Source: Methanobacteriota archaeon
GTDB taxonomy: Archaea; Thermoplasmatota; Thermoplasmata; Methanomassiliicoccales; UBA472
Direction of reading: 5' to 3'
DNA: 54,272 bases
Assembly: GCA_012729095.1 (NCBI GenBank)
Contig: JAAYDU010000044.1
Span: 1-54,272, forward strand
Shown here: positions 16,678 to 48,556 of the stretch, piece after piece
Layout of the letters: every line of letters begins with the position of its first letter
Position numbering within the stretch: the first letter of the stretch is position 1
The notes under the pieces: generated by a model
The model's database searches: none
The model's input: only the letters and a program-made list of their open reading frames with translations
Told to the model about the DNA's origin: nothing
Translations under genes and position numbers: made by a program

Positions 16678-17037
16678 ATGCTCGTAGATGACTATTTCCC
16701 GGTAGCAATGTTTGCTCTGGTGGCTCTACTTATCCCCGCCGTTGCGATTATCATGGGGAAGCTATTCAGGCCGACGAAGCAAGCTGAGATGAGAAACACG
16801 ACCTACGAGTGCGGTGAGAGGCCCATCGGAGTGGCCCAAATTCAGTTCCATGTTCAATTCTACATATACGCCATCATCTTCGTGGCCTTTGATATCCTCA
16901 CGGTTTTTCTTATCGTTTGGGCCATGGCCTTTGATGGACTCTCCGATATCGCCAACATTGCGGCGATAACGTTCCTCGTCATCCTGCTCGCTGGTGTATA
17001 TTACTCTTTGAAGAAGGAGAGGATATTGTGGATATAG
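16678..17037 (+). CDS. fpoA: Fpo/complex I subunit A (NuoA homologue)
   Basis: A 119-residue membrane protein with three transmembrane helices (about 10-30, 60-85, 92-112) and the conserved loop YECGERPIG, as in NuoA/FpoA. It helps join the membrane arm to the peripheral arm of the proton-pumping complex. It is the first gene of a 12-gene operon and overlaps fpoB by ten bases. Confidence 0.96.
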   Translation: MLVDDYFPVAMFALVALLIPAVAIIMGKLFRPTKQAEMRNTTYECGERPIGVAQIQFHVQFYIYAIIFVAFDILTVFLIVWAMAFDGLSDIANIAAITFLVILLAGVYYSLKKERILWI

Positions 17038-17591
17038 ACCTGTCATTCAACGCCATGACCATGACCGCCAAGCAGTTCGGTGAGATGACCAAGACGCTTG
17101 TGCGAGAGACCATGGTGGCCACCGGGGGCAAGAAGGTCATCGATAAGATAACCGCCCCCATATGGTCCTGGGGTCAGAGAAATTCCGTGTATCCCCTGCA
17201 CTTCGGTATCGCCTGCTGCGCCTTGGAGATGGCCGCCGCCGGCGGTCCCCGTTATGATGTCGAACGCCTTGGCATAGTTTTCAGATCTTCACCCAGACAG
17301 TCCGACGTGCTGCTTCTCAACGGCTGGATCTCCGCCAAGATCCGACCCTCTCTCAAGGCATTGTACGAGCAGATGCCTTCTCCGAAGTGGGTAGTGGCCA
17401 TGGGGGAGTGCACCATTTCGGGCGGTCCGTGGTACGACGCTTACAACGTCATACAGGGCGCGGACACCTTCATACCCGTCGATGTCTACGTTCCGGGATG
17501 CCCCTCCCGGCCCGAGGCGATGATCCAGGCCTTCAACATGCTGAACAAAAAACTGACCGCCGAGAACCGCGGCAGCTTCCTTGACGATTGA
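17028..17591 (+). CDS. fpoB: Fpo/complex I subunit B (NuoB homologue)
   Basis: A 187-residue peripheral subunit that carries cluster N2, the last iron-sulfur centre before the quinone-type acceptor. The ligands are Cys63 and Cys64 in the tandem-Cys motif, Cys128 in GECTISGG, and Cys158 in PGCPSRPE. The start is GTG 17028 inside the end of fpoA. It matches family length with a short N-terminal extension. Confidence 0.97.
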   Translation: MDIDLSFNAMTMTAKQFGEMTKTLVRETMVATGGKKVIDKITAPIWSWGQRNSVYPLHFGIACCALEMAAAGGPRYDVERLGIVFRSSPRQSDVLLLNGWISAKIRPSLKALYEQMPSPKWVVAMGECTISGGPWYDAYNVIQGADTFIPVDVYVPGCPSRPEAMIQAFNMLNKKLTAENRGSFLDD

Positions 17592-17600
17592 GGTGCTAAA

Positions 17601-18077
17601 ATGAGCCAAGTCATCGTTTACGATTCGCCCGACCGGTCCGTGGAGGACGTCACCAACGACATCAGGTCCAAGTTCCCCTCTGTGGAAGTTCTTAAGGTCG
17701 CCCCGCGCAGGATGCACCTCAGGGCTCCCCGCGAGGTCTTCCTAGACCTGTGCAAGTTCATGAAGGACGATCTCAGCTTCGAGCATAACTCCTGCGTGAC
17801 CCCCGTGGACTACATGGACCATTTCACTGTTGTATATCATATATCCTCGTGGACCAACCACATAATGGCCGAGGTGCAGGTCGACCTGCCCCGGGACGAT
17901 CCCACCGTGGATTCCATCACCCCCCTATGGGGCGGTGCCAACTGGCATGAGAGGGAGGCCTACGACCTCATGGGCGTGGTCTTCAAGGGTCATCCTGACC
18001 TGCGCCGCATAATGCTCCCCGAGGAGTTCAGGTTCCATCCCCTGAGAAAGGACTTCACCGTAGGAAGGAGGGTCTGA
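17601..18077 (+). CDS. fpoC: Fpo/complex I subunit C (NuoC homologue)
   Basis: A 158-residue protein of the 30-kDa subunit family. The signature WHEREAYDLMGVVFKGHPDL, followed by RRIMLPE, is intact. It forms part of the peripheral arm together with FpoB, D and I. It begins nine bases after fpoB and is separated from fpoD by one base. It is not fused to D, unlike the NuoCD of enteric bacteria. Confidence 0.97.
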   Translation: MSQVIVYDSPDRSVEDVTNDIRSKFPSVEVLKVAPRRMHLRAPREVFLDLCKFMKDDLSFEHNSCVTPVDYMDHFTVVYHISSWTNHIMAEVQVDLPRDDPTVDSITPLWGGANWHEREAYDLMGVVFKGHPDLRRIMLPEEFRFHPLRKDFTVGRRV

Positions 18078-18078
18078 G

Positions 18079-19167
18079 ATGCCAAGCGACGAGATGTGGA
18101 TCAACATGGGTCCCCAGCACCCCTTCAATCACGGTCTGTGGAACCTCAGGGTCAAGCTGAAGGGAGAGACGATAACCCAGGCCGAACCGATCATAGGCTA
18201 CCTGCATCGCGGCTGGGAGAAGATGGTGGAGAACCGCACCTATTCTCAGATAGTGCCACTGGCGGATCGTCTTTGCTATGGGTCATCACTTTCCTGGAAC
18301 CACCTGTACTGCCTCACCGCTGAGAAGCTGTTCGGCATAGAGGCCCCCGAGCGCGCCAAGTACATACGCGTGGCCGTTCTGGAACTGCAGCGCATAACCT
18401 CTCACCTTACGTGGCTGATGGCCGTCGGTACCGATCTGGGAAGCTACACCATCATGACATGGTCCATCAGGGAGAGGGAGCTGTTCCTGGACCTGCTCTG
18501 CAAGTTGAGCGGGGCTCGCATGACCTACAACTATTGCCGTATCGGAGGTGTAAGGAACGACTTCCCCGAGAACTACGAGCGGGATGTGAACCGCACCCTG
18601 GACGAGTTCGAGAGGCGCCTGCGCGACCTGGAATCGCTGATGGACGAGAACGAACCGTTCCTGATGAGGACCGTTGGTATAGGCAAGATGGACGGAAAGA
18701 CCGCCATGAACCTCGGCCTCACCGGCCCGATAATGAGGGCCAGCGGCGTGGACATGGACCTTCGCAGGCTGGACCCGTACGAGGTCTACGAGGACATGAA
18801 GTTCGAGATATGCACGCACACCGATGGCGACGTTTATGCCAGGTACCGCGTGCGCATGGACGAGATGCGCGAGAGCATGAAGATCGTCCGACAGGCCATG
18901 GCCGAGGCCCCCTCCGGCCCCATCCGGGTCAAGGCGCCCAGGTGCCCGCCCAAGGGGAACGCGGTCTGTCACGTGGAGGACCCCCGGGGGGAGTCGCTGA
19001 TGTACATGGTCAGCGACGGTACGGAAAGACCATACCGCCTGAAGGTACGGTCGCCCAACTTCGTCAATCTGTCCGCCTCGCCTCCCATGCTGCTCGGCTT
19101 CAAGATATCCGATGTCCCGGCGATCATGGGTGTCATGGACATGTGCATAGGAGAAACGGACAGGTGA
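18079..19167 (+). CDS. fpoD: Fpo/complex I subunit D (NuoD homologue)
   Basis: A 362-residue 49-kDa-type subunit that lines the quinone or methanophenazine cavity. Conserved parts include MGPQHPFNHGLW at the N-terminus, GYLHRGWEKM, and the C-terminal end PAIMGVMDMCIGETDR. The hydrogenase-type metal cysteines are absent, which separates it from Ech or Mbh large subunits. It follows fpoC after one base. Confidence 0.97.
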   Translation: MPSDEMWINMGPQHPFNHGLWNLRVKLKGETITQAEPIIGYLHRGWEKMVENRTYSQIVPLADRLCYGSSLSWNHLYCLTAEKLFGIEAPERAKYIRVAVLELQRITSHLTWLMAVGTDLGSYTIMTWSIRERELFLDLLCKLSGARMTYNYCRIGGVRNDFPENYERDVNRTLDEFERRLRDLESLMDENEPFLMRTVGIGKMDGKTAMNLGLTGPIMRASGVDMDLRRLDPYEVYEDMKFEICTHTDGDVYARYRVRMDEMRESMKIVRQAMAEAPSGPIRVKAPRCPPKGNAVCHVEDPRGESLMYMVSDGTERPYRLKVRSPNFVNLSASPPMLLGFKISDVPAIMGVMDMCIGETDR

Positions 19168-19171
19168 TCAG

Positions 19172-20257
19172 ATGTCGAACCTCTATATTGAACTGACCAA
19201 CTTCACCGAGTGGCTATTGGGACTGGTCGCCGCGCTCCTCGACTGGACAAAGCTGGGTTTCCTCAGCGACTTCGGAGACTGGCTGCAGACCGCACCGGTG
19301 GTGGACTTCGTCTCCACATTGTTGGTGGCGGTCATATTCCTCATAACGGCCATGATGTTCGGGCTGTGCTTCATATGGCAGGAGAGGAAGACGCTGGGAA
19401 GGTTCATGGACCGCCGCGGTACCCAGGTCGGTTTCCTCGGTTTCTTCCAGAACTTCGCTGATGGTATCAAGGTCATACTGAAGGAGCACATCGTTCCCAA
19501 GGATTCCGACCACCTGCTGTTCGAACTGGCCATATTTGCCTACCTTGCATCCACTTTCATGCTTTTCGGGTGCATACCGTACTCCGATAACTTTTACGTG
19601 ATCGACGTCGACCTGGCCGTGCTTCTCGGTATCGCCATATTCGCCTTCGGTCCATTCAGCATACTGATCGGTGGATGGTCCTCCAACAACAAGTTCACCC
19701 TGATTGGTGGAATGAGGGCCGCCGCTCAACTTATCGCCTTGGAGATCCCGCTCCTGCTGTGCATCGTCTCCGTGGCGGTGCTGACCGGGGACCTCTCCTT
19801 CGTTGGAGTGGTCACCTGGCAGGAAGAGAACATATGGCTCATAGTTCCGTTGTGCATAGGCGCGCTCACATTCTTCATCGCCGCCATCGGGGAGTCCGAA
19901 CGCATTCCGTTCGACCTTCCCGAAGCCGAGGCGGAGCTTGTCGAAGGGTGGGCCACCGAGTACGGGGATGTCAGGTGGGGCCTGCAGATGGCCTCCGATT
20001 ACTTCCGGGCCTACATCCTCTGCGGGCTGTTCACCATGTTGTTCCTTGGCGGATGGGCCGGTCCTGAGTTCATATGGGCTGAGGCATGGTACCTGTCCAA
20101 GACGTTCATCGTGTTCTTCTTCTTCATATGGGTCCGTGCGGCCACCGTGAGGATCAGGACCGATCAGATATTGAAATTGGGATGGAGGAGGCTCCTTCCC
20201 CTGGCGGTGGTCAACCTGTTGATAGCCGTCGCCCTTAAGGTCGCGGGGGTGTTCTAA
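19172..20257 (+). CDS. fpoH: Fpo/complex I subunit H (NuoH homologue)
   Basis: A 361-residue membrane subunit with about eight transmembrane segments. The conserved loop ERIPFDLPEAEAELVEGWAT, followed by EYGDVRWG, contacts the acceptor cavity, and ERKTLGRFMDRRGTQVG is the usual loop near the start. It links the peripheral arm to the proton-pumping arm. Its TAA shares one base with the fpoI ATG. Confidence 0.97.
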   Translation: MSNLYIELTNFTEWLLGLVAALLDWTKLGFLSDFGDWLQTAPVVDFVSTLLVAVIFLITAMMFGLCFIWQERKTLGRFMDRRGTQVGFLGFFQNFADGIKVILKEHIVPKDSDHLLFELAIFAYLASTFMLFGCIPYSDNFYVIDVDLAVLLGIAIFAFGPFSILIGGWSSNNKFTLIGGMRAAAQLIALEIPLLLCIVSVAVLTGDLSFVGVVTWQEENIWLIVPLCIGALTFFIAAIGESERIPFDLPEAEAELVEGWATEYGDVRWGLQMASDYFRAYILCGLFTMLFLGGWAGPEFIWAEAWYLSKTFIVFFFFIWVRAATVRIRTDQILKLGWRRLLPLAVVNLLIAVALKVAGVF

Positions 20258-21012
20258 TGAGGATAGAGGAAAGGAGATACACTAAGGCTGACCACTTCAG
20301 GGCCACCGGTTACGTGCTGAAGACCATGAAGGTCACCTTCAAGGGGGCTATCAGGGCCACCAAGAACCGGCCCTGCACGATATTGTACCCATGGGAGAAG
20401 TTGCTTTACCCTGACAACTTCCGCGGGCGCCCCGGCATAGTGCTGGAAAGGTGCATCGGCTGCGCACGCTGCGCCAAGGAATGCCCTAATCAATGCATAG
20501 AGATGGTGACGATCGAACTTCCCGACAAGGGAAAGGTCAAGCGTCCCCAGGTGAACCTCGGTCGCTGCATGATGTGCGGCAACTGTGCCGAGGCCTGTCC
20601 TACGAACGCCATGATAGTCACACCCGAGTTCGAGCTCTGCTCCTACAGCCGGGGCGGGCTGATATTCGACCCGGTAAAGCTGCAGCATCCACACAAGGCT
20701 GGCTATGAGGTGAACTACAGTTTCGCCCTGCTTTCCGAGATGAATGCGGGAGGGGAGATCAAGACCTATGCCAAGAACGACAACAGCGTTCACGACACCA
20801 TAGTCCTGGACGGGGCCAAGTGCATCTCCTGTTCGAGATGCGCCAAGACCTGCCCGACCGGGGCCATCGAGATGGTGGAGACCGGCGAGGTCAACCCCAA
20901 GACCAAGAAGCCGATCAAGCAACCCAAGTTCGACAACACTAAGTGCGTGGTGTGCGAGCAGTGCGTCGACGTGTGTCCAAAATCGGCCCTTAGCGTAAAG
21001 GAGGTGTTGTGA
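20257..21012 (+). CDS. fpoI: Fpo/complex I subunit I with four 4Fe-4S motifs
   Basis: A 251-residue iron-sulfur subunit. The first half is the normal FpoI/NuoI with two motifs (Cys66, 69, 72, 76 and Cys104, 107, 110, 114). The second half adds two more complete CxxCxxCxxxC motifs (Cys189, 192, 195, 199 and Cys230, 233, 236, 240), making a second ferredoxin-like domain after a linker of about 75 residues. Ordinary NuoI/FpoI proteins carry two clusters and are shorter. With no fpoF or NuoEFG in the operon, the extra domain could be where reduced ferredoxin docks; that is inference. Confidence 0.95.
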   Translation: MRIEERRYTKADHFRATGYVLKTMKVTFKGAIRATKNRPCTILYPWEKLLYPDNFRGRPGIVLERCIGCARCAKECPNQCIEMVTIELPDKGKVKRPQVNLGRCMMCGNCAEACPTNAMIVTPEFELCSYSRGGLIFDPVKLQHPHKAGYEVNYSFALLSEMNAGGEIKTYAKNDNSVHDTIVLDGAKCISCSRCAKTCPTGAIEMVETGEVNPKTKKPIKQPKFDNTKCVVCEQCVDVCPKSALSVKEVL

Positions 21013-21323
21013 TGGTGCTCACCGGAACTCTTCTGTTCTTTCTGATATTCGGCGCCCTGACCATTGGATGCGCCGCGATGGTGATCATATCCAAGGACAT
21101 CGTGCGCAGCGTGGTATGGCTTGCGGCGACCTTCCTGGGCGTTGCCATACTGTACGTGTTCCTGAACTCGGAATACCTGTTCCTCATCCAGATATTGGTG
21201 TATGTCGGCGCCATAAACGTCCTGATACTGTTCGGTATCATGCTTACGAAGCGCCGGATGGTGGGAGGGGACGCCTGCGAGGAGTATGAGCAGAACATCA
21301 TCAAGAGGAGGCGGTCCAAATGA
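21012..21323 (+). CDS. fpoJ: Fpo/complex I subunit J, N-terminal part
   Basis: A 103-residue membrane protein matching the first three helices of NuoJ (LLFFLIFGALTIGCAAMVII; IVRSVVWLAATFLGVAILYV; LIQILVYVGAINVLILFGIM). As in Methanosarcina, subunit J is encoded by two genes. The ATG shares a base with the fpoI stop (TGATG), which favours it over the GTG at 21009. Its end overlaps the next gene as ATGA. Confidence 0.93.
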   Translation: MVLTGTLLFFLIFGALTIGCAAMVIISKDIVRSVVWLAATFLGVAILYVFLNSEYLFLIQILVYVGAINVLILFGIMLTKRRMVGGDACEEYEQNIIKRRRSK

Positions 21324-21568
21324 AGAGTGGTGACTCAACCCAGGCCATAGTGGCCAAGTTGCTGGTGGTCGGGCTCCTTCTCGAGCTCATGCTGTACTCC
21401 CTGTTCTCCATAGAATTGGGCGAGATAGGTGGTACCGTGCTCAAGACCGCCGAGATCGGAACGGCCATATTCGCCGACTACGGGGTGGCCGTGCTCATGC
21501 TGGGCCTTATACTGTTCTCCGTCATAATTGGCGGCGTTTTCATTGCACAGGAGGAGGATGACGAATGA
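21320..21568 (+). CDS. fpoJ: Fpo/complex I subunit J, C-terminal part
   Basis: An 82-residue protein with two transmembrane helices, corresponding to the last part of NuoJ: a helix near LLVVGLLLELMLYSLFS, the loop containing GTAIFADYGVAV, and a final helix ending in GGVFIAQEEDDE. It overlaps both neighbours by four bases, so the order J1-J2-K is tightly coupled. Confidence 0.9.
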   Translation: MKSGDSTQAIVAKLLVVGLLLELMLYSLFSIELGEIGGTVLKTAEIGTAIFADYGVAVLMLGLILFSVIIGGVFIAQEEDDE

Positions 21569-21867
21569 TCCCGTTGGAGTTCGTGTTGATGATATCATCG
21601 GTCCTGTTCGTCATCGGGGCGGCCGGGGTCATATTGAAGAAGAACGCCATCATGATCCTGATGTCCATTGAGATAATGCTCAATGCGGCCAATATCAACC
21701 TGGTAGCGTTCTCATCGTACTTCGGTGATGCCACCGGGCAGGGTTTCGCCCTGTTCTCGATAGGCATCGCCGCCGCCGAGGTCACCATTGGCCTGGCTAT
21801 ACTGCTGAACCTCAACAAGCTGAGGAAAACCGTGAACGTGGACGACATTAACCTGCTGAGGTGGTAA
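21565..21867 (+). CDS. fpoK: Fpo/complex I subunit K (NuoK homologue)
   Basis: A 100-residue, three-helix membrane subunit with the NuoK pattern: KKNAIMILMSIEIMLNAANI and the conserved glutamates in helices two and three (ML-S-E and AAAEVTIGLAI). It forms one of the proton paths with subunits J and A. Confidence 0.96.
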   Translation: MIPLEFVLMISSVLFVIGAAGVILKKNAIMILMSIEIMLNAANINLVAFSSYFGDATGQGFALFSIGIAAAEVTIGLAILLNLNKLRKTVNVDDINLLRW

Positions 21868-21869
21868 AT

Positions 21870-23834
21870 ATGGACATACTGGAATTTGCATGGTTGATAC
21901 CGGTCCTGCCGCTGCTGGCCTTCGTCATCGTAGGCTTCTTAGGCAGCAAGATGAAGGACAAGGGCGGCATAGTGGCCTTGGCAGGTGTCGGGGGCGGGAT
22001 GGTGCTCGCCCTGTGGACGGCATTCGAACTGCTCACCACCGGCCGCATATACAGGGCGAATCAGGACTGGGTGGTCCTGAGCTCCGAGTACACCCTGGAG
22101 ATGGGCATTTACCTGGACAACGTGGCGGCCATGATGCTGATCGTGGTCTCCCTGATCTCGTTCCTGGTGGTCGTCTACTCCCTGGGCTATATGCATGACC
22201 AGGGCCCCCGGCGGCACCGCTACTTCACAGAGATATGCCTGTTCGTAGGCGTCATGCTAGGATTGGTCCTCGCCAACAACTTCTTCCAGATGTTCGTGTT
22301 CTGGGAACTGGTCGGTCTCTGCTCCTACCTGCTCATCGGGTTCTGGTACGAGAGGCCTGCCGCGGCCCGGGCGGCCAAGAAAGCATTCCTGGTGACCAGG
22401 GTGGGCGACGTGATGTTCATGGTCGGCCTGTTCATACTGTTCACCGAGCTGCGGACATTCAACTATGAGAGCGTGTGGGGCATGCTCGATTCCGCTGACC
22501 CAACGATGATGGCCTTCGCGGCTTTCTTCCTGTTCGGTGGGGCCATAGGCAAGAGCGCCCAGTTCCCGCTGCATGACTGGTTGCCTGACGCGATGGAAGG
22601 TCCGACCACGGTCTCCGCTTTGATACACGCGGCTACCATGGTCAACGCCGGTGTCTATTTGGTCGCCAGGTCATTCCCGATCATCGCCACCAGCGCCGAG
22701 GTCTCCCTGTTCGTCGGGGCGATCGGGGGCATAACCGCCTTCGTGGCCGCTACCATGGCGCTCTGCGCCCCGAAGATCAAGGGAGTGCTGGCCTATTCCA
22801 CAGTCTCCCAGCTGGGATACATGATCCTTGGCCTGGGTGCGGGAGCTTTCCTGTGGCATCATGGCCACCATGTCGCGGCCTCCGTGGCCTTCGGTGCTGG
22901 CCTGTTCCACCTGATGAACCACGCCTTCTTCAAGGGCCAGCTCTTCCTTGGTGCCGGTGCTGTGATACACTTCGTTCACACCGAGGAACTGGCCAAGATG
23001 GGCGGACTGGGCAAGTACATGAAGGTGAGCATGATAACCATGCTCATATCATGTCTGTCCATAGCTGGTATACCGCCCCTGTCCGGATTCTGGAGCAAGG
23101 ACGAGGTTCTCGCCATGACCTTCGAGGCCGGGGACGCCGGCCTGACCTTCATGGTGCTGTGGATATTGGGAGTGCTGACGGCCTTCATGACCGCCTTCTA
23201 CATGTTCCGCATGTGGTTCATGGTGTTCAAGGGCCAGCCCAACGAGGGCACCAAGCACGCCACCGAGCACGGGGGGCACAAGCACGAGGCCCCGGTCTCC
23301 ATGCTGCTCCCACTGGTCGTACTGGCCGCTCTGGCCTTCGGCTCAGGCTTCTCCCTGTTCATAGGGGACGGGTTCTTTGGTGCCATTTACTACGACCACG
23401 CTCACGTTCTGAGCATAGGCGAGCGATTGACCGAGGTGTTCACCTCTCCGTTGACCTACATATCCATAGTGGCTGCCGTGAGCGGCATCATGCTGGCTTA
23501 CTTCAGCTTCAACAAGACCAAGGTATCTGCCGAGAAGGTCGTGTCCAAAGGCTTCCCCAAGGCAATGCACCAGCTGCTACTGGACCGCTACAAGTTCCCG
23601 GTGGCCTATGACAAGATTGGATACGTGGGCGTGTACGGCACCTCTCTGCTGCTTGACAAGTTCGATCGCTACGTAATCGACGGTATAGTGAACGGGATAA
23701 GCGCATTCCTGATCAAGAGCGGGGGCGTGGTTCGCAAGCTTCAGAACGGCTTTGTGCAGAGCTATGCCACCCTGCTTCTCATCGGGGTGTCGTTCATCAT
23801 GATCCTTCTCTACGTCGTAGGAGTGCTGAGGTGA
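21870..23834 (+). CDS. fpoL: Fpo/complex I subunit L (NuoL homologue)
   Basis: A 654-residue antiporter-like subunit with many transmembrane helices and the long C-terminal lateral extension that braces the membrane arm. The channel signature HDWLPDAMEGPTTVSALIHA with a following ATMVNAGVYL is intact. ATG 21870 is chosen because GAGGTGG precedes it; an in-frame GTG at 21861 lies within fpoK. A histidine-rich cytoplasmic loop (HATEHGGHKHE) is seen near residue 470. Confidence 0.96.
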   Translation: MDILEFAWLIPVLPLLAFVIVGFLGSKMKDKGGIVALAGVGGGMVLALWTAFELLTTGRIYRANQDWVVLSSEYTLEMGIYLDNVAAMMLIVVSLISFLVVVYSLGYMHDQGPRRHRYFTEICLFVGVMLGLVLANNFFQMFVFWELVGLCSYLLIGFWYERPAAARAAKKAFLVTRVGDVMFMVGLFILFTELRTFNYESVWGMLDSADPTMMAFAAFFLFGGAIGKSAQFPLHDWLPDAMEGPTTVSALIHAATMVNAGVYLVARSFPIIATSAEVSLFVGAIGGITAFVAATMALCAPKIKGVLAYSTVSQLGYMILGLGAGAFLWHHGHHVAASVAFGAGLFHLMNHAFFKGQLFLGAGAVIHFVHTEELAKMGGLGKYMKVSMITMLISCLSIAGIPPLSGFWSKDEVLAMTFEAGDAGLTFMVLWILGVLTAFMTAFYMFRMWFMVFKGQPNEGTKHATEHGGHKHEAPVSMLLPLVVLAALAFGSGFSLFIGDGFFGAIYYDHAHVLSIGERLTEVFTSPLTYISIVAAVSGIMLAYFSFNKTKVSAEKVVSKGFPKAMHQLLLDRYKFPVAYDKIGYVGVYGTSLLLDKFDRYVIDGIVNGISAFLIKSGGVVRKLQNGFVQSYATLLLIGVSFIMILLYVVGVLR

Positions 23835-23838
23835 TCCC

Positions 23839-25326
23839 ATGGAAATACCGATACTATCCCTGATGTTGCTCGTATCCCTGGTCGGTGCATTGGTCACCTT
23901 CTTCATGGGAAAGAATCCCAAGATGGCCAAGATGTCCGCTCTGGTCTTCTCGGCCATACCGCTGGCGCTTTCCCTGTTCATGCTCACCGAGTATGTGCAG
24001 ACCGCCGGAGGGTACCAGTTCGAGGAATCCTTCACCTGGATCGAGTCGCTAGGCATATCCTACATGCTGGGAGTGGACGGGATCAGCGTGCCCATGGTCT
24101 TCCTGAGCACCCTGCTCGTGTTCCTTGCGGTAATATTCTCCTGGGACATCGACCATCGGACCAACCAGTTCATGGCTCTCCTTCTGGTGCTGGAGCTGGG
24201 AGTGCTGGGCGTGTTCACTGCCCTGGACTACTTCCTGTTCTACATCTTCTGGGAGGTCGTGCTGATCCCGATGTACTTCCTGATCAGCGTATGGGGCGGT
24301 CCGCGCAGGGCCTACTCGGCGATCAAGTTCTTCATATACACCCACATCGCCAGTCTGGCAATGCTGCTCGGTATATTCGCCCTGTACTTCGAGGCTGCCT
24401 CCATCAACGGGTCTTACTCGTTCAGCATGATCGACATCAACGCGGTGTCCCCCATGTTCGGACAGACCTTCCAGGTGATCGTGTTCGGGGCCCTCTTCTT
24501 CGGCTTCGCCGTGAAGATGCCCTCTTTCCCCTTCCATACCTGGCTTCCGGATGCCCACGTGGAGGCTCCCACCGCCGGGTCGGTACTTCTGGCCGGCCTG
24601 CTGCTCAAGATGGGCTCCTACGGTATCATTCGCATCGCCTTCCCGGCCCTGCCCGACGGTGCCAGCGAGTGGCAATGGGTGATGGTCATACTGGCCATAC
24701 TGTCCATAGTCTATGGGGCCATCATGTGCCTGGCGCAGAAGGACCTCAAGAAGATGGTGGCCTACTCCTCCATCAGTCACATGGGCATAGTGATGCTAGG
24801 GTTCGCCACCTTCACCGAGATAGGCATAGCCGCCGGTGTGTTCCAGATGTTCGCCCACGGTCTCATCACCGCCGTTCTCTTCATGATGTGCGGCGTGGTG
24901 CAGCACAAGGCTGGCACCAGGAACATACCCCGTCTTGGAGGGCTCGCGTCAAAGATGCCTCTGGGCGCGACGTTCATGATGATAGGTTTCATGGCATCTC
25001 TGGGCCTTCCGGGCATGGTAGGCTTCGTGGCCGAGTTCTCGGTCATGACCGCCACCTTCGACGCCTTCGGATGGCTGCTGCTGATACCAGTGACAAGCAT
25101 CGCCTTCACCGCTGCCTATTACATATGGGCGATGCAGCGGACCCTGTTCGGGCCGCTCACCAAGGAGGTGGACGCCGATCACCTGCACGACGTGTACTGG
25201 TACGAGGCGCTGCCCATGGCGGTGCTTTGCGGCCTCATCGTGCTGTTCGGCATGTTCCCGGCCTTGGTGATGGATTACATACGCCCTGCTCTTGGCACCG
25301 TACTGGGCCTTCTGGGAGGGATCTAA
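23839..25326 (+). CDS. fpoM: Fpo/complex I subunit M (NuoM homologue)
   Basis: A 495-residue antiporter-like subunit. The key channel region is FHTWLPDAHVEAPTAGSVLL with AGLLLKMGSYG, and the charged loop DYFLFYIFWEVVLIPMYFLI holds the conserved glutamate. It starts four bases after fpoL and is followed directly by fpoN with no gap. Confidence 0.97.
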   Translation: MEIPILSLMLLVSLVGALVTFFMGKNPKMAKMSALVFSAIPLALSLFMLTEYVQTAGGYQFEESFTWIESLGISYMLGVDGISVPMVFLSTLLVFLAVIFSWDIDHRTNQFMALLLVLELGVLGVFTALDYFLFYIFWEVVLIPMYFLISVWGGPRRAYSAIKFFIYTHIASLAMLLGIFALYFEAASINGSYSFSMIDINAVSPMFGQTFQVIVFGALFFGFAVKMPSFPFHTWLPDAHVEAPTAGSVLLAGLLLKMGSYGIIRIAFPALPDGASEWQWVMVILAILSIVYGAIMCLAQKDLKKMVAYSSISHMGIVMLGFATFTEIGIAAGVFQMFAHGLITAVLFMMCGVVQHKAGTRNIPRLGGLASKMPLGATFMMIGFMASLGLPGMVGFVAEFSVMTATFDAFGWLLLIPVTSIAFTAAYYIWAMQRTLFGPLTKEVDADHLHDVYWYEALPMAVLCGLIVLFGMFPALVMDYIRPALGTVLGLLGGI

Positions 25327-26781
25327 GTGGACTACACAGCATTGTATCCCGAGATAATAGTGGCCCTGTTCGCGCTGGCATTGCCCGCGGTCAACCTGCT
25401 GCTCAAGGACAACCGGTTCCTGGCCGCGGTCTCGTTGGCAGGCCTAGGCCTGTCCATGTTGTCCGTGCTCATGTACTTCCTGGATGATATGGGCCCCATA
25501 GCGTTCGACAATGGACTGATGGTGCTGGACGACTTCAGCGCGCTGTTCATGATGGTGTTCCTCTCCGTGGCCTTCCTGGTCATACTGGCCTCGTCCCGGT
25601 CCATCGAGGGCGAAAAGCATGTCGCGGAGTACTACTCGCTGGTATTGCTGGCGACCGTCGGCATGATGCTGGTGGCCTCCGCCACGGACCTGTTCGTGCT
25701 GTATGTAGGCATAGAGATCACCAGCCTGTCCTCGTATGCTCTGGTGGCCTTCCGCAAGAAGGACATAAGGGGCACGGAGGCGGCCACGAAGTACTTCATC
25801 TTCGGCGGCATCTCATCTGCCTTCACCCTGTTCGGCATATCACTGATATACGGGCTCACTGGGACCACCAGCTTCGAGGAGATCGGAGCTTTGGTCGGAA
25901 CCCTGGAGGAGTACAAGGAAATGCTGTGGATGGCACTGGTCATGGTCATAGTGGGCTTCGGCTTCAAGGTGGCCATGGTGCCGTTCCATTCCTGGGCACC
26001 TGACGTGTACGATGGCGCTCCCACGACCATCACCGCCATGCTAGCCGCGGGCTCCAAGAAGATGGGTTTCGTAGCCATGTTCAAGTTCTTCCTCATAGCC
26101 ATGTTGGCCATCAAGGCCGACTGGGAGATCGTGGTGGCGATGCTTGCCATCATCACCATGACCGTGGGGAACCTTGCGGCCCTGAACCAGACAAGCATCA
26201 AGAGGATGCTCGCCTACTCCAGCATAGCCCAGGCCGGTTACATACTGATCGCGGTGGCGGTGGGAACAGAGTTCGCGCTGACCGGGGGCATATTCCACAT
26301 AATGACCCATGCCTTCATGAAGGGTGGCGCGTTCATTGTCGTCGCGACACTGGCCACCGTGGCCATCGGGGAGAGGATAGCGGACTACAAGGGACTGGCC
26401 AAGAGGTCGAACTTCATGGCCTTCTCCATGACCGTGCTGCTCTTCTCGCTAGCGGGAATACCGCCCTTGGCCGGTTTCGCCAGCAAGGTCGTGCTGTTCT
26501 CCTCGCCGATAATGGGCACCGTGCAGGGCGCGGAGTGGATGGTCTGGCTGTCCGTGGCAGGAATAATCAACAGCGCCATATCCCTGTACTACTACGCCCG
26601 CGTGGTCAAGTACATGTACGTGGACGAGCTGGAAGAGGGAGCCCCGTCCGAGAAGCTGAAACTGCCCAAGGCCATGGCCGCCGCGGTGGCCATATGCGTG
26701 GTGGCTGTGATCGGCATCGGCGTGTTCCCCGAGTACTTCATACAGTTTTGCCAGGACGCCGCCCAGGCCCTTTTCGCCTGA
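25327..26781 (+). CDS. fpoN: Fpo/complex I subunit N (NuoN homologue)
   Basis: A 484-residue antiporter-like subunit and the last gene of the operon. It shows FHSWAPDVYDGAPTTITAML and the glutamate of YVGIEITSLSSYAL. The start codon is GTG immediately after the fpoM stop. No fpoO or fpoF follows; a T-run lies just downstream. Confidence 0.96.
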   Translation: MDYTALYPEIIVALFALALPAVNLLLKDNRFLAAVSLAGLGLSMLSVLMYFLDDMGPIAFDNGLMVLDDFSALFMMVFLSVAFLVILASSRSIEGEKHVAEYYSLVLLATVGMMLVASATDLFVLYVGIEITSLSSYALVAFRKKDIRGTEAATKYFIFGGISSAFTLFGISLIYGLTGTTSFEEIGALVGTLEEYKEMLWMALVMVIVGFGFKVAMVPFHSWAPDVYDGAPTTITAMLAAGSKKMGFVAMFKFFLIAMLAIKADWEIVVAMLAIITMTVGNLAALNQTSIKRMLAYSSIAQAGYILIAVAVGTEFALTGGIFHIMTHAFMKGGAFIVVATLATVAIGERIADYKGLAKRSNFMAFSMTVLLFSLAGIPPLAGFASKVVLFSSPIMGTVQGAEWMVWLSVAGIINSAISLYYYARVVKYMYVDELEEGAPSEKLKLPKAMAAAVAICVVAVIGIGVFPEYFIQFCQDAAQALFA

Positions 26782-26890: not shown

Positions 26891-27853
26891 ATGTCTCAGA
26901 GCTGGGATTCCTCTATAAAGGATGAGCTTCAGATGGTGGAACTGGAGATCCACCGCAGCATTCGCTCTGAGCAGCCAGTTCTGACCGAGATATGCGGTTA
27001 CGTGATCTCGTCCGGAGGCAAGCGCATGCGCCCCGGGGTCACCATACTGTCCTATCTGGCTTCCGGGGGAAAGGATGTCAGCGAGGCCATCAAGATCGCC
27101 GCGGCCTTCGAGATGATACACTCCGCCACCTTGATACACGATGACATAAACGACCGTTCCGAGAAGCGCAGAGGGCGCCTCTCCGCCTACAAGAAGTTCG
27201 GCCTGCAGCAGGCACTGGTCAGCGGGGACTTCCTGTTCGTAAAGGCCTTCGCCATAGGCGGGTTCTTCAACGAGGAGATAGTCAGCCTCGTGGCGGAAGC
27301 GTGCACGGCCATAGCCGAGAGCGAGATCGTGCAGTTCGAAAAGGAGGGCGAGATCGCCCCTCTGGACGTCTACCTGGGCATAATCGAGGGCAAGACCGCC
27401 AAGCCCATCATGGCCGGGGCCCGCATCGGCGCATACCTGGCGAAGGCCTCTCCGGAGCGCATACATGCCATGGGCGAGTACGGTTTGAACATAGGGATGG
27501 CCTTCCAGATAGTCGATGACATACTGGACATAGTGGGTACCGAAAGCTCACTGGGCAAACCTAGGATGGTGGACTTCTACGAGGGCAAGGCAACCCTGCC
27601 TTTGATACACGCCATGGAAGACCCTGAGGTGGGTCAGCGCATCTCCCAGCTCTTCCACAGCAAGGTCAAGGGCAATGAGGACATCGAGGAGGTCTTCTCC
27701 CTGATATCCAGAACGGACGCGGTCGAGAGGTCCAAGGAGAAGGCCAAGGAGTACGCCGAGAAGGCAATTAAGGCCCTGGAAGGCCTTCCAGATTCGGAGC
27801 ACCGGACGGGCCTTCGGCGATTGGCGGCAAAGGTGGTCGACCGCAACTACTGA
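26891..27853 (+). CDS. polyprenyl diphosphate synthase (geranylgeranyl-type)
   Basis: A 320-residue trans-prenyltransferase that extends allylic diphosphates with isopentenyl diphosphate to make the chains of archaeal membrane lipids. The first aspartate-rich motif is DDIND at 84-88 and the second DDILD at 209-213. The residue five before the first motif is Ala79, a small residue, which in this family fits products of C20 or longer (inference). It is followed after 22 bases by a reductase of the same lipid pathway. Confidence 0.94.
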   Translation: MSQSWDSSIKDELQMVELEIHRSIRSEQPVLTEICGYVISSGGKRMRPGVTILSYLASGGKDVSEAIKIAAAFEMIHSATLIHDDINDRSEKRRGRLSAYKKFGLQQALVSGDFLFVKAFAIGGFFNEEIVSLVAEACTAIAESEIVQFEKEGEIAPLDVYLGIIEGKTAKPIMAGARIGAYLAKASPERIHAMGEYGLNIGMAFQIVDDILDIVGTESSLGKPRMVDFYEGKATLPLIHAMEDPEVGQRISQLFHSKVKGNEDIEEVFSLISRTDAVERSKEKAKEYAEKAIKALEGLPDSEHRTGLRRLAAKVVDRNY

Positions 27854-27875
27854 GCCATCGTTCGAGGTGAATCAA

Positions 27876-28964
27876 ATGGTCAAAGAGCTTAGTTACGACA
27901 TAGTGGTGGTAGGGGCCGGTCCCGCCGGGTCCACCACGGCACGCTTCGCTGCGGAGGCCGGAGCCAACGTCCTGGTACTCGAGAGGCGGTCCAAGGTAGG
28001 CGTTCCGGTGCGCTGCGGCGAGCTCATGCCAGACCTGAAGGAGATGAGCGACATCTTTCCCATGGCCGGGGACATGAGCGACATTTTCGATGTGCCTTCC
28101 GACCTGATATCCCTCAACTTCGACACCATTCGCATTTTCTCCCCTAAGAACACCAGGTACGAGGTGCCCTTTTCGGGATACACCACCGACCGCGACCGTC
28201 TGGACCAGTTCTTCGCCTCTCAGGCCGTCAAGGCCGGGGCGGAGGTCATGACCGGGCAGAGGGTGGTCAAGGTCGAAGAGGGCATGGTGCATACTGATGA
28301 CCTTTCGGTACATGCCAAGGTCATCGTGGGCGCCGACGGTCCTCTCTCCCTGGTCGGCAAGGCCTTCAGGCTGGACCGCTCTGCGGACCTGTGTCCCGCC
28401 GTGACCGTGCAAGTGCCCGGAGAGTTCGAGCCGGTGCCTGAGATGTACTTCGGCACGGTGGCGCCGGGCGGATACGCGTGGGTGATCCCCAAGAAAGGAT
28501 GCGCCAACGTGGGACTGGGCGTCTCAAGGAAGTTCGCCAAGATGACCGTCGGCGAGTACTTCGACGGCTTCGTAAGGTTCAGGGGGCTCGAGACAGGAAA
28601 GCCGGAAGGCAAGGTCGTCCCTATGTCCAGCCCTGTGAAGCGCACCGTTTCCGGGCAGGCGATGATAGTCGGTGACGCCGCCGGTCAGGTGATGGCCGTC
28701 AATGGCGGGGGCATACCCATGGCCCGCATAACCGGAAAGGTTGCCGGAACGGTCGCTGCCGCGAACGTGTTGAAGGGCACCTCCCTGTCCGAGTATGAAA
28801 GGGAATGGCGCCGTCAGGTGTTCAAGCCCCTGCGCACCGCCGCGCGCACCAAGGTGCTAGCGGAACTGTGCTTCGGCAGCGTGTGGCGAACGGAAACGGC
28901 AATGAAGGTTCTAGGTCCTCGCAGGATGAACAACCTGATCCGCTGCCGCCCTATATTCCCCTAG
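27876..28964 (+). CDS. geranylgeranyl reductase family FAD protein
   Basis: A 362-residue FAD enzyme. The dinucleotide fold VVGAGPAGSTTARFAAEAGA is at about 11-30, the second FAD motif is MIVGDAAGQVMAVNGGGI, and the catalytic-domain pattern YAWVIPKKG is present. In archaea these enzymes saturate the isoprenoid chains of ether lipids. It is somewhat shorter than typical digeranylgeranylglycerophospholipid reductases, so another prenyl substrate is possible. ATG 27876 is chosen because GAGGTGA precedes it. It converges with the radical SAM gene, with a four-base overlap. Confidence 0.85.
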   Translation: MVKELSYDIVVVGAGPAGSTTARFAAEAGANVLVLERRSKVGVPVRCGELMPDLKEMSDIFPMAGDMSDIFDVPSDLISLNFDTIRIFSPKNTRYEVPFSGYTTDRDRLDQFFASQAVKAGAEVMTGQRVVKVEEGMVHTDDLSVHAKVIVGADGPLSLVGKAFRLDRSADLCPAVTVQVPGEFEPVPEMYFGTVAPGGYAWVIPKKGCANVGLGVSRKFAKMTVGEYFDGFVRFRGLETGKPEGKVVPMSSPVKRTVSGQAMIVGDAAGQVMAVNGGGIPMARITGKVAGTVAAANVLKGTSLSEYEREWRRQVFKPLRTAARTKVLAELCFGSVWRTETAMKVLGPRRMNNLIRCRPIFP

Positions 28965-34610: not shown

Positions 34611-35510
34611 TTAAACTTTAGGCCGACCCTGGGCCTCCAGGGACCTCTCCGCGGCCAGCACGGTGTTGCTCATGAGCATCACGATGGTCATGGGCCCCAC
34701 TCCCTTGGGGACCGGGGTTATCGCCGAGGCCTTCTCCTTAACGGCCTCGAAATCCACGTCGCCGACGAAACGGTAGCCCTTGGGGGCGGAGGGATCGTCG
34801 ATCCTGTTGGAACCGGCATCCACCACGACGGCGCCGTCCTTCACCATGTCCGCGGTTATGAACCCAGCCTTGCCCACCCCGCTGATCAGCACGTCGGCCT
34901 GCGCGGTCAATGCCTCGAGGCCCGATGTCCTTGAATGGCAAACGGTGACCGTGGCGTCCACGCCTTTCTGCATGAGAATGGCCGCCATGGGTTTGCCGAC
35001 TATGTTGCTGCGGCCCACCACGACCACGTGCTTGCCGGCGACATCGATCCCATACGTGGAGAGCATCACATGTATCCCATAGGGCGTGGCTGGCAAGAAA
35101 CCGCCATCCTCCCCTATGAGCATCTTACCCACGTTCGTGGGGTGGAAGCCGTCCACGTCCTTCTTCGGATCAATTGCGGCGATAACCTTTCCGACGTCGA
35201 TGTGCCTTGGCACCGGCAGTTGAACGAGTATGCCGTGCACCTGGGGGTCCCGGTTCAGATCGTCTATCAGGTTCAGAAGCGCGTCCTCGCTGAGGTCGGC
35301 CGGTTTCCGCACGGTCAATGAGTACATTCCCAGGTCCTGACACGCCTTTCCTTTCATGGTCACGTAGGACACCGAGGCGGGATCGTCCCCGACTATGATG
35401 ACCGCCAGTCCCGGGACGACTCCCTTCTCCTTCAGCGCGGAGATCCTGTCCACCAGGTCCTTCCTGATGCGGTCCGCGACCTCCTTGCCATGTAAAAGTC
35501 TCGCGCCCAT
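34611..35510 (-). CDS. folD: methylene-THF dehydrogenase/methenyl-THF cyclohydrolase
   Basis: A 299-residue bifunctional enzyme interconverting methylene-, methenyl- and formyl-tetrahydrofolate with NAD(P). The catalytic pair is Tyr49 and Lys53 in SYVTMKGK, and the family signatures DGFHPTNVGKM and VVVGRSNIVGKPMA are intact. It is divergent from formate-THF ligase across 98 bases, so the two catalyse consecutive steps of a folate methyl branch and probably share control. The substrate is folate rather than methanopterin by family; this is a bacterial-type route in an archaeon. Confidence 0.96.
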   Translation of the reverse strand: MGARLLHGKEVADRIRKDLVDRISALKEKGVVPGLAVIIVGDDPASVSYVTMKGKACQDLGMYSLTVRKPADLSEDALLNLIDDLNRDPQVHGILVQLPVPRHIDVGKVIAAIDPKKDVDGFHPTNVGKMLIGEDGGFLPATPYGIHVMLSTYGIDVAGKHVVVVGRSNIVGKPMAAILMQKGVDATVTVCHSRTSGLEALTAQADVLISGVGKAGFITADMVKDGAVVVDAGSNRIDDPSAPKGYRFVGDVDFEAVKEKASAITPVPKGVGPMTIVMLMSNTVLAAERSLEAQGRPKV

Positions 35511-35539
35511 TTGCCGATCGGGCCTCTTGATGCCTTATC

Positions 35540-35577
35540 CATATTAAAGAATTGCCGGGCGATAAACCATTTTAACC
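35540..35577. promoter_or_regulatory. divergent promoters of folD and fhs
   Basis: On the minus strand CTTTAATATGGA (35539-35550) is about 35 bases from the folD start. On the plus strand CATTTTAACC (35568-35577) is about 37 bases from the fhs start, which also has AAGGTAG just upstream. The boxes are about 25 bases apart. Confidence 0.5.
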
Positions 35578-35608
35578 TCGGTCTGGATATCGGTTCTCAA
35601 GGTAGCGC

Positions 35609-37282
35609 ATGAAGAGCAACATCGAGATTTCCCAGGAGGCCAAGGTGCTCCCCATCGGCCAGATAGCCGCCCAGCTGGGGATAGGGGAGGAGGAGATCGT
35701 TCCGTACGGCAGGCACATGGCCAAGGTGCCGCTGTCGGTGCTCAAGCGCTACGAGGACCGCCCCAATGGAAATCTGGTGCTGGTCACGGCCATCACCCCC
35801 ACCCCGGCCGGTGAAGGCAAGACGGTAACCACCATCGGCCTGGTGGAGGCTCTCGGTAAACAGGGCCACAAGGTCATGGGGGCGATACGCGAGCCGTCCC
35901 TCGGTCCCACCTTCGGTCTGAAGGGAGGGGCCACCGGGGGCGGCCTCGCTCAGGTCTATCCGATGTGGGACATCGACCTGCACTTCACCGGCGACATACA
36001 CGCCGTGGGCGCCGCCCACAATCTCCTGTCGACCATACTGGAGAACCACATCGCCAAAGGCAACAAGCTGAACGTCGACCCGACCCGGATCTTCCTGAAG
36101 AAAGCGATCGACATGAACTGCCGGGAGCTGCGCAACATTGTCGTCGGTTTGGGCGGGCGCAAGGAGGGCGGCATTCCGCACGAGAGCGGCTTCATCATCA
36201 CGGTGGCCTCGGAGATCAGCGCGATACTGGCTCTGACCACGTCCATGACCGACCTTAAGAAACGCCTAGGTAAGATACTGGTCGGGTACACCTACGACAA
36301 CCAGCCCGTGCACGCCCGTGACCTGGGGTGCGTGGGGGCCATGGCCACGCTGTTGAAGGATGCCATACACCCCAACCTGGTGCAGACGTTGGAAGGGCAG
36401 CCGTTCTTCATACACGGGTTCCCTTTCGCCAACATCGCCCACGGTAACAGCTCCATCATCGCCACCAGGTACGCGCTGAAGATGGCGGACATAGTGGTCA
36501 CCGAGGCCGGTTTCGGTGCTGATCTGGGCGCGGAGAAGTTCTTCGATATCGTTTGCCGCAGCGACGGCTTCCGCCCGAACTGCGCGGTGCTGGTCTGTTC
36601 CATAAAAGCTCTCAAGATGCACGGGGGATGCTCCCTGAAGGCGGTCGGTTGCGAGGACCCCGAGGCGTTGAGAAAAGGATTCTCCAACCTGGACAAGCAC
36701 ATCGAGAACATACGGCACTTCGGCGTTCCGATCGTTGTCGCCATCAACCACTTCCCGGCCGATACGGAGGAGGAGGTGCGCATTGTCAGGGAGCATTGCG
36801 GTCAGATGGGCGTGCGATGCGCCCTGTCCGAGGTCTTCGAAAAAGGCGGGGCTGGTGGACAGGAGCTGGCCGATCAAGTCACTGAAGCGATCGAGAAGGA
36901 TGCCTGCGACTTCCGATACCTCTACGAGCTCGACGTTCCCTTGAAGGAGAAGATCAGGACCATTGCCACCGAGATGTACGGGGCTCAGGTGGTGGAGTAC
37001 GAGACGGCCGCCAAGAGGCACCTGCGAGTGATAGAGGAAGCCGGTATAGGCAACTTCATGGTGTGCATGGCCAAGACCCAGCTGTCCCTTACCGACAGGC
37101 CGGAAATGAAAGGCGCGCCCACGGGCTGGGAGCTTACGGTCAGGGAGATATTCGTATCGTCCGGGGCCGGTTTCGTCGTTCCCATATGCGGGCGCATCAT
37201 GCTCATCCCCGGACTTCCGTCGCAACCTTCCGCCCTTGGCATCGATATAGACGAGGACGGAAAGATCACCGGTCTGTACTGA
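35609..37282 (+). CDS. fhs: formate--tetrahydrofolate ligase
   Basis: A 557-residue enzyme that makes 10-formyl-THF from formate, ATP and THF, the first folate step of the bacterial Wood-Ljungdahl methyl branch. The P-loop-like TPTPAGEGKT is at 63-72, with EPSLGPTFGLKGGATGGG and TEAGFGADLGAEKFFDIVCR further on, all highly conserved. Full length. With FolD, MetF and PurH in the same window it can also supply formyl groups for purines. The 3' end overlaps the converging DUF3786-like gene by 17 bases. Confidence 0.97.
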   Translation: MKSNIEISQEAKVLPIGQIAAQLGIGEEEIVPYGRHMAKVPLSVLKRYEDRPNGNLVLVTAITPTPAGEGKTVTTIGLVEALGKQGHKVMGAIREPSLGPTFGLKGGATGGGLAQVYPMWDIDLHFTGDIHAVGAAHNLLSTILENHIAKGNKLNVDPTRIFLKKAIDMNCRELRNIVVGLGGRKEGGIPHESGFIITVASEISAILALTTSMTDLKKRLGKILVGYTYDNQPVHARDLGCVGAMATLLKDAIHPNLVQTLEGQPFFIHGFPFANIAHGNSSIIATRYALKMADIVVTEAGFGADLGAEKFFDIVCRSDGFRPNCAVLVCSIKALKMHGGCSLKAVGCEDPEALRKGFSNLDKHIENIRHFGVPIVVAINHFPADTEEEVRIVREHCGQMGVRCALSEVFEKGGAGGQELADQVTEAIEKDACDFRYLYELDVPLKEKIRTIATEMYGAQVVEYETAAKRHLRVIEEAGIGNFMVCMAKTQLSLTDRPEMKGAPTGWELTVREIFVSSGAGFVVPICGRIMLIPGLPSQPSALGIDIDEDGKITGLY

Positions 37283-37865
37283 GAAGCGCCTGTGCGATGC
37301 TGATGCCCAGCTCGGCCAGGTCCTCGGCCGGTAGGGTCCGTGCTCCTCCGGAATCAAAGAGCGTCGCGGCCCTTCCGGGCACCTCGCCATCGCCCCGCCA
37401 GGCCGCCACGGCTATCTTCAGGCGCGGGAACGCTTGGAGGTTGACCGCGGCTTCGCCCAATTCCATCGCCGTTCCACCGAGCGGGGTTGCATCGATCAGC
37501 AGGTCCCCTGGAGACCTTCCGTAACGCTCCGCCAGCGGCGTCAGCGCTCTTTGCCTGAACGCCTCGGCGAAGGGGCGTCCGGAGGGAAGCATGTCGAAGG
37601 ATGTCCACTCGTCGTCCCTTCTCCAGGTCACGCATCCTTTCAAATGGTGCAGCGTCACCAGCCCCCATCCCCCGCCCAAGATATCCGGGGCGGTCACACA
37701 TCGATCGGCCAGATCAACGACGGTCTCCTGTCCCACGATCTGCAGGACCAGCTCCCTGCCCCGCAGCTCCCCTCCCGAGGCCAAGGCAAGATCCTTGTCC
37801 GGAATTCCCGTCAAGGCGTCCCAGGCAAGCATGATGGCGTGGCGGTAGGCCGGATTACAGGGCAT
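37266..37865 (-). CDS. DUF3786-like protein
   Basis: A 199-residue protein resembling the DUF3786 family. It has an N-terminal PAYRHAIMLAWDALTG, a central LVTLHHLKGCVTWRRDDEWT with a FDMLPSGRPF block, then LGGTAMELGEA, and a C-terminal LKIAVAAWRGDGEVPGRA with LFDSGG and EDLAELG. DUF3786 genes often lie near corrinoid or acetyl-CoA pathway genes, but no activity is known. Here it sits between fhs and the HdrA-MetF operon. Start 37865 overlaps the end of the upstream deacetylase by 11 bases, with GAGAGG before it. Confidence 0.72.
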   Translation of the reverse strand: MPCNPAYRHAIMLAWDALTGIPDKDLALASGGELRGRELVLQIVGQETVVDLADRCVTAPDILGGGWGLVTLHHLKGCVTWRRDDEWTSFDMLPSGRPFAEAFRQRALTPLAERYGRSPGDLLIDATPLGGTAMELGEAAVNLQAFPRLKIAVAAWRGDGEVPGRAATLFDSGGARTLPAEDLAELGISIAQALLSTDR

Positions 37866-38679
37866 CCTCTCTCCGCAGGTGTTCGGCGATGCTGACCAGC
37901 TCGCATCCTGAGCTTTCGACATGCTCCAGCAGCGTTCTCAGGTCGTTCATCTCTTTGTTCACATCCTCTATCGTCCGGATCCCTGAGCAGTAGCTCTCCA
38001 CCGGATGCCAGGAATGCGTGGCGATAACCAGCAGCCCCTCCTGGAAACCATCCACCAGGTCCAGGTAGTCGGTGATACGTCTCTTTCCCTCATGGTACGG
38101 CCAAAGATAGGAGACGATCCTCTTCCCCCGGCCGTCCCGGGACCAGCACACCGGTATCTCCGGCAACCCGTTCTTGTTGCGGTAAGGGCGGACCTTGCCG
38201 TCCACCAGCTCGACGGTGTCCGAGGAATCGTACAGGAATTCCCTGGCATGAAGCTCTTCCAGCAAGATGTCGGTCACCCTCTGGTAGGGAGCTCTGAACC
38301 CCCTTTCGCCCTTTCCGAACGCACGGTCCAGAGCAGCCGTTCCCTTGTCCAGCACGGTCTTTGTGCTTCCCAGGTCCAAGGGCAGCCCGGTCTCCTTTCC
38401 GGTGAAGTCCTCGTGGTCGTAGCCGTGCAGCGCGACCTCTTGATGGCGCATAATGTCCTTGAGGTCCATCCTATCCAGGAGAACCTCCGCCGTCCGTCCT
38501 TCCCAGAAGAACGTTCCCCTGATGCCGATCTCTTCCATAAGGCCGGCCATCAGCTCCAGGCCTCGGGCGGACGAATCGAAGCGGGGATACTTTCCCCCGT
38601 TGGAGATGGAGCATATCTCTCCTTTACAGGCCAGGTTGACGTCCCGGTCCACGTCCACGGTGAAGGCCACGGCGCGCAC
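37855..38679 (-). CDS. polysaccharide deacetylase family (NodB-like) protein
   Basis: A 274-residue protein with the NodB motifs: FTVDVDRD at the N-terminus (catalytic aspartate), HGYDHEDF (metal histidines), and RGFRAPYQR. A late histidine is seen in IATHSWHP. There is no signal peptide, so it would act in the cytoplasm, on an N-acetyl sugar or other amide. The start is GTG at 38679 with a TTAAG box 26 bases upstream (38703-38709). It is coupled to the DUF3786-like gene. Confidence 0.85.
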   Translation of the reverse strand: MRAVAFTVDVDRDVNLACKGEICSISNGGKYPRFDSSARGLELMAGLMEEIGIRGTFFWEGRTAEVLLDRMDLKDIMRHQEVALHGYDHEDFTGKETGLPLDLGSTKTVLDKGTAALDRAFGKGERGFRAPYQRVTDILLEELHAREFLYDSSDTVELVDGKVRPYRNKNGLPEIPVCWSRDGRGKRIVSYLWPYHEGKRRITDYLDLVDGFQEGLLVIATHSWHPVESYCSGIRTIEDVNKEMNDLRTLLEHVESSGCELVSIAEHLRREDAL

Positions 38680-38731
38680 GCGGGTATATCCCGCGGCCAG
38701 GACTTAAGCGGTGCGGTCCCCCGCAAAAAGT

Positions 38732-38766
38732 TTTTAATATCTGGCTATTGGTGGCAAACGTATAAT
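38732..38766 (+). promoter_or_regulatory. two TATA elements before the HdrA-MetF operon
   Basis: TTTTAATAT (38732-38740) and CGTATAAT (38759-38766) both precede the first gene at 38824, giving leaders of about 60 or 35 bases. The short-lived frame starting at ATG 38765 ends after 26 codons and overlaps the operon start; I do not treat it as a gene. Confidence 0.45.
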
Positions 38767-38823
38767 GGAAGCCTTTCCCGGACCGCTTGGACCAGCCTAT
38801 TCGTCAGGTGTTCCCTCCTTAAC

Positions 38824-41344: not shown

Positions 41345-41718
41345 TAGTATGCTACTGCTGTTCCCGATCAGGGGTGCCGGCCGCGCTGTCTGCCCTGGAG
41401 GAGGGCGGTCTGGACGACGTGATCGTCCGGGAGGTGCCTTGCGCCGGTTCCGTAGAACGATGGGAAGTGCTGCGCAGCTTCCGACAGGGCGCGGAGGGGG
41501 TGCTCATAGTCGGCTGCCTGCTGGAGAACTGCGCCCATCACTACGGGAGCGAGGTCGCCGCGCGTCGGGCTGTCCTGCTGGAAAGGACCGTGCAGGACGC
41601 AGGGCTGTCCAAAGGCAGGGTGGCCATGGTCCATCTGGCCGAGCATCAGCCACTTCGTTTCCGAAGGGCGGTTGAGGAGATGAGAGCGGTGATCGGTACA
41701 GCAGGGGGTCAAGCATGA
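41341..41718 (+). CDS. mvhD: MvhD/FlpD-like 2Fe-2S electron-transfer subunit
   Basis: A 125-residue protein with the MvhD cysteine pattern: CYCC at 4-7, Cys34 in VPCAGSV, and Cys59 and Cys64 in GVLIVGCLLENCAHHYG. In methanogens MvhD passes electrons between a hydrogenase or formate dehydrogenase and HdrA. Here it is bound by ATGA overlaps to the HdrA-like gene before and metV after, so it probably connects the HdrA-like pair to MetVF. No hydrogenase subunit is nearby. Confidence 0.88.
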   Translation: MIVCYCCSRSGVPAALSALEEGGLDDVIVREVPCAGSVERWEVLRSFRQGAEGVLIVGCLLENCAHHYGSEVAARRAVLLERTVQDAGLSKGRVAMVHLAEHQPLRFRRAVEEMRAVIGTAGGQA

Positions 41719-48534: not shown

Positions 48535-48556
48535 CGCGGGAACGGATTCGCTTGGG

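Follow-up and report, generated by a model that had tools for sequence, protein, structure and literature searches.

A second dicluster ferredoxin domain in FpoI of the headless Fpo-like complex of Methanomassiliicoccales, a probable outward extension of the electron input path

How does an Fpo-like complex that has no input module receive its electrons? Headless Fpo is already known in Methanomassiliicoccales (PMC4153887, PMC6147122, PMC7374477), and for 11-subunit complex I enzymes it is an open question which donor supplies the electrons and where they enter (PMC11238625). The locus described here, in a window of 54,272 nt (the whole stretch of DNA that was analysed), sharpens that question. 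Its fpoI/nuoI-like gene encodes four 4Fe-4S motifs and so exceeds the usual NuoI/FpoI limit of two clusters. In the literature searched, which excluded Lang 2015 and Kroninger 2016 and 2019, FpoI of this order is only listed and a second FpoI domain is not mentioned. With a dicluster domain joined covalently to the subunit where electrons are expected to enter, the donor question becomes experimentally testable, and the extended FpoI is fixed across the order of the biochemically studied M. luminyensis.

The complex is encoded on the forward strand by one operon with the order A-B-C-D-H-I-JN-JC-K-L-M-N, spanning positions 16678–26781. Upstream of fpoI lie fpoA/nuoA (16678–17037; PF00507), fpoB/nuoB with predicted cluster N2 (17028–17591; PF01058, and PRK06411 above its cut-off), fpoC/nuoC (17601–18077; PF00329), fpoD/nuoD (18079–19167; PF00346) and fpoH/nuoH (19172–20257; PF00146). 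Downstream are three short membrane subunits, fpoJN, fpoJC and fpoK (21009–21867; NCBIfam NuoJ, NuoK and FpoK matches), followed by the antiporter-like proton-pump subunits fpoL, fpoM and fpoN (21861–26781), ORFs named from sequence whose counterparts in relatives follow one another in the same way. With A, B, C, D, H, I, J, K, L, M and N in one operon and E, F and G absent from it, this is a headless 11-subunit complex of the Fpo-like or Nuo-like kind. Reading of the operon by ORF, Pfam and NCBIfam agreed with the original prediction that it holds no fpoF, fpoO or NuoEFG genes. The genome search for fpoF that had been proposed as a check was run on the whole genome (1.68 Mb, 99.4% complete), and neither the FrhB/FdhB C-terminal domain of the FpoF family (PF04432) nor the NuoF C-terminal domain (PF10589) was found in it. 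Methyl-CoM reductase is encoded in the same genome, whose closest named relatives are MAGs of Methanomassiliicoccales.

Curated cut-offs for F420H2 dehydrogenase (Fpo) are missed by five subunits: FpoC scores 119 of 220 bits, FpoD 383 of 600, FpoH 235 of 475 and FpoK 129 of 145, while FpoI, the core domain of which is alike, reaches 108 bits against a cut-off of 180 for its 135-position family (NF040612), with the best stretch at residues 29–125. The FpoF input subunit that defines this dehydrogenase is also missing, the genome having no FrhB/FdhB C-terminal domain. The 11-subunit layout is shared with Hfo, the Fpo-like 4g hydrogenase of Bathyarchaeia (PMC7886697), whose subunit D carries [NiFe] motifs. 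FpoD of the window, in contrast, has no [NiFe]-binding Cys pairs, with neither a CxxC pair nor an L1/L2 motif detected. The complex is therefore not a hydrogenase, and identity as a group 4 [NiFe] hydrogenase was ruled out.

The fpoI gene (20257–21012, forward strand) encodes a protein of 251 aa and overlaps both neighbours: its ATG shares one base with the fpoH stop codon, and fpoJ starts before fpoI ends. Four complete CxxCxxCxxxC motifs begin at residues 66, 104, 189 and 230 (20452–20484, 20566–20598, 20821–20853 and 20944–20976), as had been claimed, and Pfam matches comprise two Fer4_7 dicluster stretches and four Fer4 stretches. The first two motifs fall within an N-terminal NuoI/FpoI core (residues 33–141; 20353–20679) with predicted clusters N6a and N6b. 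This is the best stretch for NuoI TIGR01971 (139.7 bits, cut-off 113), and residues 15–147 align with NdhI in a PDB match. Two CxxCxxCxxxCP motifs in the core and a gene position between nuoH and nuoJ identify the protein as a NuoI/FpoI subunit. An interdomain linker of about 39 aa (residues 142–180; 20680–20796), conserved within the genus in the alignment, leads to the added C-terminal 2×[4Fe-4S] domain (residues 181–248; 20797–21000), where the last two motifs form a separate Fer4_7 domain at residues 188–244. The best PDB matches of this domain are the polyferredoxins MvhB and FwdF, likewise chains of 4Fe-4S domains; these differ in being separate proteins and not the NuoI subunit of a complex I. 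An Fpo complex without its input module, and with a second dicluster domain on FpoI, is thus what operon and genome search bear out. Net charge of the C-terminal domain, considered as a sign of a ferredoxin-docking face, was dropped: it varies from +3 to −4, is not consistently basic and outlines no clear electrostatic docking face. An AlphaFold2 model of FpoI built from seven sequences had a pLDDT of 37 and was discarded.

How widespread the extended form is was surveyed across Thermoplasmatota, in which some loci were cut by the end of the fetched stretch or contig. Four motifs were present in all 38 Methanomassiliicoccales genomes from which FpoI was extracted, a recurrence that makes the four-motif protein no chance feature, and in an alignment of 17 rows from the order none of the eight Cys of the C-terminal domain varies. 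A wider scan detected FpoI in 111 of 120 order genomes, with matches spanning both domains in 107 of the 111; most of the nine genomes lacking a match are incomplete assemblies. Elsewhere in the phylum, the four-motif form occurs in families f5 (14 loci), f14 (6), f11 (1) and f30 (1), a six-motif form at one locus in f9, and two-motif NuoI in f7, f8, f12, f15, f23, f29, f31, f37, f38 and f42, nearly all of these loci lying in A-to-N-type operons. Extended FpoI is a fixed form in Methanomassiliicoccales and recurs in other Thermoplasmatota. Outside Methanomassiliicoccales, 22 genomes have the four- or six-cluster form, and no methyl-CoM reductase was found in them, so the function of the extended form is not tied to heterodisulfide reduction. 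The six-motif FpoI (L063:6953–7867, G248) is 305 aa long and belongs to an 11-subunit operon in a genome without methyl-CoM reductase. At L064:4654–6273 (G017, f15), a two-cluster NuoI has a C-terminal Lys/Ala/Pro-rich tail devoid of Cys where the added domain would be.

Two-cluster NuoI of other Thermoplasmatota is also found in equally headless operons; where a surveyed genome outside the order, with either form, had a NuoF-type match, this lay, in the cases compared, on a different contig or at a long distance from nuoI. Since headless operons carry both NuoI forms, the doubled domain is a further character that marks only one group, and headlessness is not confined to complexes with the extra domain, which corrects the link drawn in the original prediction. 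The phylum survey found a NuoF domain in none of the 38 order genomes and an FrhB-family domain in 5. In the one FrhB-family case inspected (G174), the gene is outside fpo, beside an HdrA-like/glutamate-synthase-like cluster; this unusual F420/HdrA-type cluster (L128:1965–8846) encodes the FrhB-family protein, a large HdrA-like protein and glutamate-synthase-like proteins. The finding named beforehand as fatal to the idea, a form common to all related FpoI proteins together with an FpoF encoded elsewhere, thus occurs by half: the form is common to the FpoI of the order (38 of 38), but the window's genome encodes no FpoF elsewhere.

We consider it probable that the C-terminal domain lengthens the redox wire outward and accepts electrons from ferredoxin; we infer where the domain lies, what donates to it and how the clusters are ordered. 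The N-terminal domain would hold the usual N6a and N6b clusters adjoining FpoB (N2), and the second, NuoI/polyferredoxin-like dicluster domain would probably sit at the apex, in place of NuoG or FpoF. Reduced ferredoxin would dock on the C-terminal domain, and electrons would run from ferredoxin through the C-terminal clusters to N6a, N6b and N2 and on to the membrane or an HdrD-side acceptor, a flow that would drive proton pumping. Precedents come from several systems. In headless photosynthetic complex I (cyanobacterial NDH-1), ferredoxin docks at NdhI and electrons enter at N6a, then pass to N6b and N2 (PMC7021789). Published headless Fpo complexes, which like this one have subunits A–N without FpoF (and in Methanomassiliicoccales also without FpoO), have ferredoxin as their proposed or shown donor (PMC4153887, PMC7374477, PMC10470525): the headless Fpo of M. 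luminyensis oxidises ferredoxin and is coupled to HdrD (PMC7374477), and in Methanothrix the FpoI/FpoB clusters have been proposed as the ferredoxin entry (PMC10470525). NuoI/NdhI of NDH-1 resembles the present subunit in its N6a/N6b domain and the absence of an NADH module. It differs in having two clusters, and in that ferredoxin binding is aided by the extra subunits NdhV and NdhO, not by an added domain. To accept electrons from ferredoxin, photosynthetic NDH-1 needs no more than a two-cluster NuoI (PMC7021789); this, with the two-cluster NuoI of headless Thermoplasmatota operons, means that the extra domain is not generally required for such input. Of the suggestion that the added domain extends the electron path or docks ferredoxin, an input role stands as likely, by inference; the domain has proved not to be specific to this genome. 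Next to NuoEFG/FpoF modules and bare two-cluster NuoI, extended NuoI would be a third way of getting electrons into the complex.

Alternatively, HdrD or HdrA-type proteins could dock on the C-terminal domain or draw electrons from it, which would connect heterodisulfide reductase to the Fpo-like complex without an intermediary. In this order, which lacks HdrE, Fpo is generally accepted to be coupled to HdrD (PMC7374477, PMC4153887), and several HdrD/HdrB-type CCG proteins are encoded, a further point in favour. A dedicated site of either kind is nevertheless unlikely, because the domain occurs without methanogenesis, in the 22 genomes that lack methyl-CoM reductase, and because the HdrA/MetF cluster marker is absent from 76 of 120 order genomes. 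There is a further difficulty: in complex I, electrons that leave before N2 bypass the coupling site, and an exit at this point would skip it. The HdrA-like proteins of the window, once suggested as the docking partner, are encoded in a THF-type methylene-THF reductase cluster of their own (~38.8–43.3 kb), and since its MetV marker is found in only 44 of the 120 order genomes, they were ruled out as a general partner of FpoI.

Two further readings concern the clusters themselves. If they carried no catalytic electrons, the domain would be mainly structural, a cap over N6a where NuoG is absent that stabilises the peripheral arm. Its fixation in the order on the subunit expected at the arm apex would suit such a cap, as would the Cys-free tail that takes its place in L064, a close relative placed just beyond the extended forms. 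However, the aligned rows of the order keep every one of the eight Cys, and the rise to six clusters in one family better fits a wire, so that we regard a purely structural role as quite improbable. At the other extreme, the longer wire would form a hub that more than one soluble donor could feed, among them ferredoxin, MvhD/HdrA complexes and CODH. It has been proposed that 11-subunit complexes act as platforms on which multiple donors dock (PMC11238625), and in eight genomes, drawn from three families, the fpo operon shares a contig with the HdrA/MvhD/MetF cluster marker at a distance of 12–23 kb; this linkage may, however, be plain synteny, and no donor subunit is fused or co-operonic. A multi-donor hub seems to us the least probable of these roles, and extension of the wire toward ferredoxin is the reading we carry forward.

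The trees bear on how the extended form arose. In an FpoD tree (73 rows) and an FpoD+FpoH tree (55 rows), the extended rows all fall on one side of a branch with support of 71 and 81, respectively, and f15, the two-cluster family with the Lys/Ala/Pro-rich tail, lies just outside them in both. A single origin of the extended complexes is favoured by these topologies, with branch support of 71–81 that is not decisive. Methanomassiliicoccales complexes are nearer to f14 and f30, of other classes, than to two-cluster relatives of their own class, and because constraining the class to one clade was rejected (p about 2e-63), transfer or old paralogy is implied behind the class-crossing pattern.

As to the domain itself, a profile of the order's C-terminal domain found the FpoI C-terminus as its first match in the four-cluster genomes tested, the N-terminal domain in the six-cluster genome, and NuoI as its best match in two-cluster genomes. 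In the window's genome, the nearest relative of the C-terminal domain is the FpoI N-terminal domain (59.8 bits vs 39.2 for the next ferredoxin domain). The C-terminal domains group together in the domain tree (99/100), with one unrelated outside ferredoxin domain placed inside, and their treatment as one clade was not rejected (p 0.21). A grouping of NuoI N-terminal and C-terminal domains against the rest in one tree was rejected at p 0.006, a test blunted by the EchF-type NuoI homologues included in the rest. Duplication of the NuoI domain and fusion are thus both possible as its origin. We tentatively suggest, as an idea with somewhat less than even chances, that in a Thermoplasmatota branch of complex I the input module was replaced by growth of NuoI from two to four to six clusters, giving a built-in polyferredoxin arm that had a single origin, spread across classes and works in methanogens as well as non-methanogens.

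Other genes of the window and its relatives were noted in passing. Positions 34611–43306 and 48497–53630 hold THF-type C1 pathway genes, including HdrA-like, MvhD-like, MetV and MetF genes, a RACo-type activator, a CooC-like ATPase, and folD and fhs (the last two named from sequence). The distance of 12–23 kb from fpoI to the MetV marker was recorded in G000, G062, G083, G134, G165, G186, G210 and G239, and may reflect synteny or a functional link. An HdrD-like gene lies near putative group-4 hydrogenase or Ehr-type genes, as read from sequence, at locus L136 (G000:C43:20500–36000). Right after fpoN (26891–28964, and also in L004) come genes of the polyprenyl synthase and geranylgeranyl-reductase-like kinds, which may serve to make a membrane electron carrier.
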